In this document: positions 9,630 through 53,178 of the stretch, in pieces | Position numbering within the stretch: the first letter of the stretch is position 1 | How the letters are laid out: every line of letters starts with the position of its first letter | Assembly (NCBI RefSeq): GCF_001682385.1 | Contig: NZ_CP016210.1 | Span: 3,100,001-3,164,000, forward strand | Reading direction: 5' to 3' | DNA length: 64,000 nt | Origin: Azoarcus olearius | GTDB lineage: Bacteria > Pseudomonadota > Gammaproteobacteria > Burkholderiales > Rhodocyclaceae | Notes under the pieces: model-generated | What the model was told of the DNA's origin: nothing | The model's database searches: none | Seen by the model: the letters and a program-made list of their open reading frames with translations, nothing else | Program-made: the position numbers and the translations under genes

Positions 9630-10163
9630 TCAAGCAGCCTTCTTCGACGCCTTCGCGCTCGCCACGATGGGCTGCAGCGCGTTGCTCGCGGCGGCGAACT
9701 GGTGTTCAGTCGCCTCGCGGGTGGTGCGAAGGATGTTCTCGTAAGCCTCGGTGACGCTGTTGAGCGCGGTCTTGACCTTGCCCACCACTTCGGCGGTGCC
9801 GGCCGGCCCCGTCCTGGCGACGTCGTCGAGCAGTTCGTTGACCTGCTGCGATACGCCATTGAGGCGCTCGGAATTGAGGCGGGCGATGTCCGCCTGCGCC
9901 TTCACATAGATGTCGCTGACGTTGCGAAGGTAGTCGGTCGCCTGCTCGATGCCCTGCACCGGGGTCTTGAACTGCCCGGAAAACTGCTCGAAGACGTCCT
10001 CGCCGAGCGGCTTGTAGCCGGCGGACAGGGAACGCAGCGTGGCGAAGTTGAGCGCCACGAAACGCTCGCTGGCATCAAGGCCGATATCGAAGGCCGACTT
10101 CAGGGCGTTGCCGTTCGCGTTGGCAGCGTCAGTCAGCTTTTGCAGCGAAAAATACGAACTCAT
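9630..10163 (-). CDS. Phasin family protein (polyhydroxyalkanoate granule-associated)
   Basis: 177 residues from the ATG ending at 10163, preceded by AGGAGGA. It begins with Met-Ser-Ser and continues as amphipathic helices: K-S-A-F-D-I-G-L-D-A-S-E-R-F-V-A-L-N, then A-T-D-Y-L-R-N-V-S-D-I-Y-V-K-A-Q. An Ala/Lys-rich tail (A-K-A-S-K-K-A-A) ends it. This is the Phasin_2 pattern. Phasins coat polyhydroxybutyrate granules and control their number and size, so the organism probably stores PHB. The gene stands alone, with its own terminator and no pha biosynthesis gene beside it. Confidence 0.9.
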   Translation of the reverse strand: MSSYFSLQKLTDAANANGNALKSAFDIGLDASERFVALNFATLRSLSAGYKPLGEDVFEQFSGQFKTPVQGIEQATDYLRNVSDIYVKAQADIARLNSERLNGVSQQVNELLDDVARTGPAGTAEVVGKVKTALNSVTEAYENILRTTREATEHQFAAASNALQPIVASAKASKKAA

Positions 10164-23715: not shown

Positions 23716-23744
23716 ATAGTAATGGCAGACTACCCGCGTGTCAA
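23716..23744 (-). promoter_or_regulatory. Sigma-70 promoter of rplM-rpsI
   Basis: On the minus strand: TTGACA (-35, 23739-23744), 17 bp, TACTAT (-10, 23716-23721). This is a near-consensus promoter with ideal spacing. It gives an rplM leader of about 50 nt containing an inverted repeat (GCGAGC at 23709-23714, GCTCGC at 23686-23691) that might take part in L13 autoregulation. Confidence 0.85.
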
Positions 23745-23769: not shown

Positions 23770-23801
23770 AAAAAAAAACGCAGTCCGTTTGGGACTGCGT
23801 T
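23770..23801 (-). terminator. Strong intrinsic terminator of the small RNA
   Basis: On the minus strand AACGCAGTCC, a 5-nt loop and GGACTGCGTT form a perfect 10-bp stem followed by nine T. It ends the candidate small RNA 26 bp before the rplM promoter, so the two units are separate. Confidence 0.92.
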
Positions 23802-23882
23802 AAATCCACACCAAAGGAGGAGGGTGGAGGAGACACCGTTTGGATCGTCCGCTGCTTCCGCAGCGCGTCTTTCGATCCGACT
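23771..23882 (-). ncRNA. Candidate small RNA with anti-Shine-Dalgarno motif, upstream of rplM
   Basis: A transcription unit of about 112 nt with a sigma-70 promoter at one end and a strong terminator at the other, and no convincing ORF. Reading 5' to 3': GGATCG pairs with CGATCC (6 bp); inside this, after an asymmetric internal loop (AAAGACG opposite GA), CGCTGC and GCAGCG close a GGAA tetraloop of GNRA type. Next is an unstructured CU-rich segment (23812-23832) reading CUCCUCCACCCUCCUCCUUU in RNA. It contains two CUCCUCC copies and resembles the 3' end of 16S rRNA (CACCUCCUUU). The terminator hairpin follows. The form suggests an RNA that pairs with Shine-Dalgarno sequences. I recall an Rfam family called Betaproteobacteria toxic small RNA with an anti-SD motif; membership is untested. 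An alternative, an rplM attenuator, is less likely because rplM has its own promoter after the terminator. Confidence 0.68.
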
Positions 23883-23889
23883 GAGGCGA

Positions 23890-23918
23890 ATTATCCGGAA
23901 ACGCCAAGCCCGCAGCAA
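23890..23918 (-). promoter_or_regulatory. Sigma-70 promoter of the candidate small RNA
   Basis: On the minus strand: TTGCTG (-35, 23913-23918), 17 bp, GATAAT (-10, 23890-23895). Transcription should start near 23882, an A on that strand. Confidence 0.72.
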
Positions 23919-23920
23919 GG

Positions 23921-23947
23921 AGATTTTGTGCATTGCACTATAAATCT
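23921..23947. promoter_or_regulatory. Nested dyad upstream of the small-RNA promoter
   Basis: AGATTT (23921-23926) and AAATCT (23942-23947) flank a perfect GTGCA-T-TGCAC palindrome (23928-23938). The dyad abuts the small-RNA -35 box on its upstream side, about 40-65 bp from the predicted start. That is a normal position for an activator, and a repressor is also possible. The protein is unknown. Confidence 0.45.
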
Positions 23948-24148
23948 TTTGATTGCGCGATTAACTGCACTTATCCACCGTAAGACCCTGCTGGCGCTAA
24001 GGCGGGAGCCGCCCCCATCCTCCTCAGCACGCGCTCCGCGGCTGCCGCATATTGCAGCGCAAGGGGAAACTCCGGGCCATCCGCGGCCTGCTTCGGTAGA
24101 ATCGAAACCCCGTCCGGCTCAGCGCCATACATAAGGAGAACCGAAGCA

Positions 24149-24571
24149 ATGGAATGCACTGTCAAGTGGGTAGGCGGGATGGCCTTCCTGGCCGAAACCG
24201 GCACCGGTCACCTGGTTGCCATGGACGGCGCGCCCGAAGCGGGCGGCCGCAACCTCGCCCCTCGCCCGATGGAACTCCTGCTCGCCGGCGCCGGCGGCTG
24301 CACGGCCTTCGACACGGTGCTGATCCTGAAGCGGGGCCGGCAGGACATTCGTGACTGTACCGTACGCGTAGAAGCGGACCGCGCCGAGACTGACCCGAAG
24401 GTGTTTACCCGCATCCGCTTCTTCTACACCGTCACCGGGAAGAACCTGAAGCCGGAATCCGTCGAGCGGGCAATCCATCTCTCGGCCGAAAAGTACTGTT
24501 CGGCCTCGATCATGCTCGGGAAGACCGCGGAAATCTCCCACGAGTGGGAAATCGTCGAGGCGGCCGGCTGA
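24149..24571 (+). CDS. OsmC/Ohr-family protein (YhfA-like)
   Basis: 140 residues with the OsmC fold. It has two conserved Cys: C51 in L-L-A-G-A-G-G-C-T-A-F-D and C117 in A-E-K-Y-C-S-A-S. R-P-M-E-L-L-L-A precedes the first. The family reduces organic peroxides through the Cys pair. The short N-terminus and C-T-A-F-D sequence place it nearer the YhfA branch than OsmC or Ohr proper, so the substrate is uncertain. AAGGAG before the start gives a good ribosome binding site. Confidence 0.9.
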   Translation: MECTVKWVGGMAFLAETGTGHLVAMDGAPEAGGRNLAPRPMELLLAGAGGCTAFDTVLILKRGRQDIRDCTVRVEADRAETDPKVFTRIRFFYTVTGKNLKPESVERAIHLSAEKYCSASIMLGKTAEISHEWEIVEAAG

Positions 24572-24704: not shown

Positions 24705-25325
24705 TCAGACGCGATAAGCGGCTGTCGTCATGACCCGCGACGCCAGTTTCATGGCGCTGCGCACTGGCAACGGGAGTTCCCGCCCGCCCAGCTTGAGCGC
24801 GGTTTCGGCATGCTCGACTTCGTCGGTCCGCATCTGCTCCACGATCGCGCGCGACTTGCGATCGTCGGCCGGCAGACGTTCGAGGTGGCTCGTGAGATGG
24901 GCCTCGACCTGCCGCTCCGTCTCCGCTAGAAAGCCGAGGTTCCAGCGATCGCCGAAACGACCCGCCAGCATGCCGATGGCGAGCGCGCCGCTGTACCACA
25001 AGGGATTGAGCAGGCTCTTGCGTCCGCCGAGTTCGGCGATGCGCTGCTCGGTCCACGCGAGGTGCTCGGTTTCCTCATGGGAAGCGCGTTGCAGTTCTTC
25101 GCGCACCCGCTCGTCAGCGGACATGATGGCCTGCCCCTGGTACAGCGCCTGGGCGCAGATTTCGCCGACGTGATTGACGCGCATCAGCGCCGCCGCATGC
25201 CGCTTCTGTTCGTCGTCCAGCGGCGCGTCGGGCACGTCGTCTCCCGGTACGGGGCGGACACTTCGCGCCGGCGCGAAAACGGTGCGCAGCGCCTTGTCGA
25301 ACTCGATGATGGCCTTGTCGAACAT
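24705..25325 (-). CDS. coq7: Demethoxyubiquinone hydroxylase Coq7
   Basis: 206 residues from the ATG ending at 25325. It is a ferritin-like di-iron protein with ligands in [20 protein letters not shown] and R-T-D-E-V-E-H-A. It hydroxylates 2-polyprenyl-3-methyl-6-methoxy-1,4-benzoquinone, the penultimate step of ubiquinone synthesis, at the inner membrane. It is the oxygen-dependent enzyme found in many Betaproteobacteria in place of UbiF. It starts 2 bp after the CNP1-like gene. Confidence 0.94.
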
Positions 25326-53040: not shown

Positions 53041-53178
53041 GACGAAACCTGGCCGAAAGCGGTAAAGCGGACGATTCTAGCGAACTTTTGTGCCTGTCCG
53101 CGCCGGCTCCAGCATGTTGCGGCGCAAAAAGAACAGGATTAAGGTGAGCCTCCTTTCCTCCAGCCAAGGGAGAACGCC

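Follow-up and report, generated by a model that had tools for sequence, protein, structure and literature searches.

The intergenic region upstream of rplM in Azoarcus olearius raises the question of what kind of transcript arises there, what controls its synthesis and on which messages it acts. The region lies in a stretch of 64,000 nucleotides, referred to here as the window, between rplM (ribosomal protein L13; 23231-23659, minus strand; ORF, syntenic in relatives) and a divergently transcribed OsmC-like gene (24149-24571, plus strand), which is followed by a coq7-like gene (24705-25325, minus strand); the last two are ORFs with conserved synteny, named from sequence appearance. A cmscan search revealed a match to Rfam family RF02278 (Betaproteobacteria toxic sRNA) at 23770-23835 on the minus strand, with 65.9 bits (E = 2.3e-12) against a curated cut-off of 50 bits and spanning the full model (1-64), so that the family named in the preliminary description was the correct one. 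This core carries anti-Shine-Dalgarno site 1, the site-2 hairpin, the terminator hairpin and the U tract, which is the layout of RF02278: two hairpins, the second being the terminator, along with CU-rich anti-Shine-Dalgarno stretches.

The promoter TTGCTG-N17-GATAAT ascribed earlier to the unit is present on the minus strand (23890-23918), with the -35 box TTGCTG at 23913-23918 and the -10 box GATAAT at 23890-23895, separated by a spacer of 17 nt. Promoter and terminator positions predict a primary transcript of ~112 nt (23771-23884, minus strand), its 5' end being placed from the -10 box. The 10-bp terminator stem with nine U is likewise borne out at 23770-23801; the intrinsic stem-loop covers 23777-23801 (minus strand), beyond which a T run extends to 23770, the nine T occupying 23770-23778. 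Both CUCCUCC copies exist and fall within 23813-23834, site 1, GUCUCCUCC, at 23826-23834 and site 2, CCUCCUCCUUU, at 23813-23823 (minus strand); the second, however, sits in the loop of the conserved first RF02278 hairpin and not in an open stretch, as had been supposed. The fold of the 116-nt RNA has an energy of -44.6 kcal/mol (z = -3.5), and 0 of 200 shuffles were equally stable.

The 6-bp stem with its GNRA-capped 6-bp hairpin was recovered as a 5' leader hairpin (23842-23878, minus strand) from the fold and from an alignment of 24 leaders of the Azoarcus-Thauera-Zoogloea type. In the outer stem (GGATCG/CGATCC) 23873-23878 pairs with 23842-23847, and the inner hairpin of the window genome, CGCTGC-GGAA-GCAGCG with its GNRA cap, lies at 23850-23865. 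The leader varies in sequence and usually folds (mean z -1.1 for 129 leaders). Compensatory changes, proposed earlier as a check, occur in the 5' stem, and inspection by eye shows them in the core hairpin as well. In the alignment 88% of the outer-stem cells are paired and 6 are double-change cells, either value being reached in 0 of 500 shuffles, and sliding the partner strand abolishes the pairing, although the covariation score gives a less clear result (69 of 500 shuffles). The alignment supports a structured precursor. By analogy with S17 and ncS27, the RNAs discussed below, the ~112-nt transcript is probably trimmed to a stable ~66-nt form starting at UGUCUCCUCC, the conserved 5' start at UGUCUCC being the sole sequence trace of this short form.

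Of 200 genomes in the window's GTDB family 189 contain RF02278, as do 188 of 300 from the order, and the Azoarcus olearius genome itself has a second copy, flanked by can-like and priA-like genes. At least 120 public stretches share the 32-nt core letter for letter; most come from Azoarcus, Thauera, Aromatoleum, Zoogloea and Dechloromonas, others from Herbaspirillum and Limnobacter. The order coq7-osmC (opposite strand)-sRNA-rplM-rpsI is kept in most related loci. Two locus types can be distinguished: osmC/rplM-linked copies, in which a leader of ~30 to 120 nt precedes the core, and orphan copies, in which a -10-like box nearly abuts the core, a placement resembling that of the short Burkholderia double-hairpin RNAs. 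In both Aromatoleum tolulyticum (L129, 2271-5563) and Azoarcus sp. Aa7 (L136, 4618-7925) the core recurs in four exact copies within ~3.3 kb. Two further exact cores, on L121 and L139, come from metagenome bins labelled Chloroflexi and Steroidobacteraceae and display the usual betaproteobacterial gene order; these contigs are probably mis-binned.

Comparison with characterized members places the RNA more closely. The RF02278-type RNAs of B. cenocepacia, described in PMC5688073 as ncS03, ncS05, ncS27 and ncS62, share with it the core sequence, two hairpins, CU-rich anti-RBS sites and several copies per genome; the longer form of ncS27, which is processed according to the same paper, is an analogue of the predicted precursor. 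The Rfam model spans only 64 nt, and the window copy adds the hairpin leader. S17 of Bordetella pertussis adjoins coq7 and represses by RBS pairing (PMC11722255); its 5' part is nearly identical and it has a precursor and a short form (PMC11722255), the precursor being ~190 nt as compared to the ~112 nt predicted here. As S17 adjoins coq7, and as the loci that we read as Bordetella-like have coq7 beside the sRNA, the window sRNA is very probably the S17 orthologue; the arrangement coq7-osmC-sRNA-rplM is found in the window and in relatives. ncS27 (BCAL3348a/3349) is likely its counterpart by position. Neisseria NmsR and NgncR_162/163 are alike in their three stems, in anti-Shine-Dalgarno sites in the linker and second loop, and in metabolic targets (PMC5362039, PMC9973317), but differ in their dsbB-lrp locus, tandem pairing and link to RelA. 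Membership in the NmsR family (RF02877) was rejected, since the score of 34 bits falls short of the cut-off, 52. As a member of RF02278 and the positional counterpart of S17 and probably of ncS27, the RNA is thus known in kind; its likely controller seems new.

That controller is suggested by a feature overlooked in the preliminary description, a PhaR-type operator (TGCRNYGCA) upstream of the sRNA promoter, which recurs at the second genome copy and in most relatives. PhaR is a repressor that leaves DNA on binding granules of the carbon store polyhydroxybutyrate (PHB). The Azoarcus olearius genome encodes PhaR, and two of its phasin genes are each preceded by two PhaR-type sites ~60 bp apart. 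The proximal operator TGCAATGCA, within TAGTGCAATGCACAAAA (23929-23937, minus strand), stands upstream of the -35 box at the sRNA promoter and fits the R. eutropha PhaR consensus YTKNTGCRNYGCANMAR (PMC12849132); its placement is comparable to that of site BS1 of R. eutropha phaP1, and the spacing between the -10 box and the site is alike in relatives. The motif TGCNNNGCA lies at most 120 nt upstream in 98 of 129 osmC/rplM-linked copies (2.9 in shuffles) and in 32 of 36 orphan copies (1.0 in shuffles), the latter group excluding 11 copies of uncertain class, some of which also carry the operator. As controls, 118 stretches immediately 3' of the sRNA and 115 from inside rplM were searched, and no PhaR-type motif was found in them. 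The Bordetella-like loci carry the same site.

A distal PhaR-type palindrome, TGCAGCGCA (24053-24061, plus strand), is located near the OsmC-like gene. Since 78 of the 128 intergenic regions between osmC and the sRNA contain a distal TGCRNYGCA, most frequently 60-120 nt ahead of osmC, this gene may share the control. Elsewhere in the window, a PhaR-like palindrome, TTGCGGCGCAAAA, occurs at 53117-53129, ~50 bp before an ORF starting MPPLLALVFDALVF (antiporter-like by eye), and 9864-10139 (minus strand) has a weak Phasin_2 match of 25.0 bits against a cut-off of 24.9.

As regards the direction of control, R. eutropha PhaR is also reported to activate phaP3 (PMC12849132), and the window site, being upstream of the -35 box, could also be in an activator position. 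A precedent for repression of an sRNA by PhaR (AniA) is MmgR of S. meliloti (PMC12542648, PMC8401924). MmgR (alpha-r8) is Hfq-dependent and repressed via a promoter palindrome, and so resembles the model proposed here; it differs in being alphaproteobacterial and in its reported action on phasins, the likeness to RF02278 being one of regulation. For the ncS RNAs, PhaR control is not mentioned in the main text of PMC5688073, and a common upstream motif is reported for three homologues (Fig. S3 of that paper). No link between PhaR and RF02278 was found in the literature searched, a scope that excluded Kimelman 2012, Sass 2019 and the said Fig. S3.

Whether the operator follows its presumed regulator was examined in 40 sRNA copies from PhaR-positive and 38 from PhaR-negative genomes of the order, PhaR being called by PF07879 and TGCRNYGCA sought in the 160 nt upstream of each copy. 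The site is present at 30 of 40 PhaR-positive copies as compared to 1 of 38 PhaR-negative copies (p = 6e-12 by copy, 7e-10 by genome), the strict form being missing at the other 10 PhaR-positive copies. Because relatives are not independent, the counts were collapsed by GTDB family. At least one site then occurs in 16 of 16 PhaR-positive and 1 of 10 PhaR-negative families (p = 3e-6), and under a majority rule in 13 of 16 and 1 of 10 (p = 0.0008); PhaR and operator are both inherited, and the family-level test lessens this non-independence without removing it. PhaR loss is concentrated in ~10 families. The same contrast is seen inside one genus, where PhaR and the site are both present in G371 and both absent from G487. 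The operator thus tracks PhaR presence with two exceptions: G319, a PhaR-negative assembly of 85% completeness with a full site, in whose family the other sampled members have PhaR, and G015 (Rhodocyclaceae), which has no PhaR match and keeps a one-mismatch site. Within the window's own GTDB family PhaR is nearly universal (192 of 200 genomes), which leaves hardly any contrast. In genus g52 of that family, three genomes without a PhaR match (G054, G106 and G141) have no strong RF02278 copy, and two others (G171 and G195) have both PhaR and such a copy.

The upstream palindrome might instead be bound by another regulator whose distribution happens to follow that of PhaR. Binding of PhaR to the site is a prediction, and the PhaR-negative families carry a different palindromic promoter, aatATTAGATAATtCTAATaac, so that other regulators do act on RF02278 RNAs; on the other hand, the motif fits the published PhaR consensus, stands before the phasin genes of the window genome and tracks PhaR in 16 of 16 as compared to 1 of 10 families, which together make this explanation unlikely. 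A palindrome resembling AATATTAGATAATTCTAATAAC is shared by PhaR-negative loci L253-L290 upstream of the RF02278 core and replaces the PhaR-type site in several families; the palindrome in PhaR-negative families suggests another regulator. Control by PhaR need not be exclusive either. Input to S17 is Bvg-dependent and an unidentified repressor has been postulated (PMC11722255); the dependence of the S17 level on BvgA in Bordetella implies that inputs other than PhaR exist.

Candidate targets were sought genome-wide as ATG starts preceded, at a distance of 2-10 nt, by GGAGGAGA, which is complementary to site 1. The complement GGAGGAGAC of site 1 precedes many ATGs in the genome, and GGAGGAGA-N2-10-ATG occurs at 42 distinct genes as compared to 0 for the reversed-pattern control. 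A C, by which the duplex with the sRNA is lengthened, follows GGAGGAGA in 25 of 42 cases, versus 32 of 98 AAGGAGA starts (p = 0.005; counted by eye). Assigned by Pfam, 25 of 40 candidates versus 6 of 31 controls belong to uptake, catabolism or their regulators, the grouping being made by the author and not blinded. The uptake candidates are of the Peripla_BP_6, DctP, SSF and FadL type; those for catabolism include phenol hydroxylase, catechol dioxygenase, LigA, LigB and acyl-CoA enzymes; and the regulators are of the sigma-54 and AraC types. Extended site-1 matches fall mostly at genes for nutrient uptake and aromatic degradation. These predictions are consistent with what has been reported for S17, whose targets include transporters and sigma-54 activators, and with the effect of ncS27 on growth. 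One candidate start, L333, appears by eye to be that of a PHB depolymerase-like gene and is without a Pfam match. Extended site 2, AAAGGAGGA, precedes ATG at only 4 places in the genome and at 3 in the reversed control; this search is therefore not informative.

The preliminary description had proposed a candidate ribosome-targeting RNA that could sequester Shine-Dalgarno sequences broadly or regulate specific mRNAs; on the broad reading it would slow translation in general. Site 2 does resemble the 16S 3' tail, and overexpression of ncS27 slows growth, as stated in PMC5688073, where family members are cited as toxic in E. coli (Kimelman 2012). Overexpression of S17S, however, left exponential growth of E. 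coli unimpaired (PMC11722255), relatives are described as pairing with particular mRNAs (PMC11722255, PMC5688073), and extended complementarity is confined here to ~42 gene starts, enriched in uptake and catabolism. A general effect on translation is consequently disfavoured, and appears very improbable. Still less credible is the reading of the RNA as an attenuator, the terminated 5' leader of an rplM transcript made chiefly by read-through; it is suggested by the same strand and close upstream position in most loci, and is rejected in view of the unit's own promoter and strong terminator, the near-consensus rplM promoter that follows (TTGACA-N17-TACTAT, 23716-23744, minus strand; the sole such match in the window, 0.01 expected) and the occurrence of the same RNA at loci without rplM, such as priA/can; the separate rplM promoter and the independence of the sRNA from rplM had both been anticipated.

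Selective repression under PhaR control fits these observations best, and on the comparative evidence it is quite likely that this RF02278 sRNA is placed under a PhaR operator and blocks uptake and catabolic mRNAs during PHB storage. The window sRNA, which is encoded at the conserved chromosomal position of RF02278, with osmC and rplM on either side, would be a trans-acting, probably Hfq-dependent RNA; its primary transcript would be trimmed by RNase E, by analogy with S17. PhaR bound to the operator at the sRNA promoter would repress it; at carbon excess, when PHB is laid down, PhaR would be titrated off the DNA and the sRNA would be made. Through its two CU-rich sites the sRNA would then base-pair with selected mRNAs at their Shine-Dalgarno regions and prevent their translation, turning down transport (of branched-chain amino acids and acetate, and of the TRAP type), aromatic degradation and sigma-54 activators. 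The binding of PhaR and its repression of the promoter, the involvement of Hfq, the trimming of the transcript and the repression of these targets are steps that we infer.

Extended to the PHB-storing Betaproteobacteria at large, the comparisons make it probable, with slightly less assurance, that PhaR directly represses RF02278 sRNAs and that granules release an anti-Shine-Dalgarno RNA lowering uptake and catabolism, PhaR being a candidate for the S17 repressor. The sRNAs of this family occur widely among Betaproteobacteria and are able to slow growth, and PhaR would supply the switch that has so far been unclear. If true, the link fits the reported rise of RF02278 sRNAs in glucose medium, biofilm and starvation, opens the proposed repression of S17 to direct testing and parallels the PhaR-MmgR circuit of Alphaproteobacteria. 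It would also let carbon storage feed back on carbon intake, and would offer a handle on how aromatic-degrading PHB producers limit uptake during storage.
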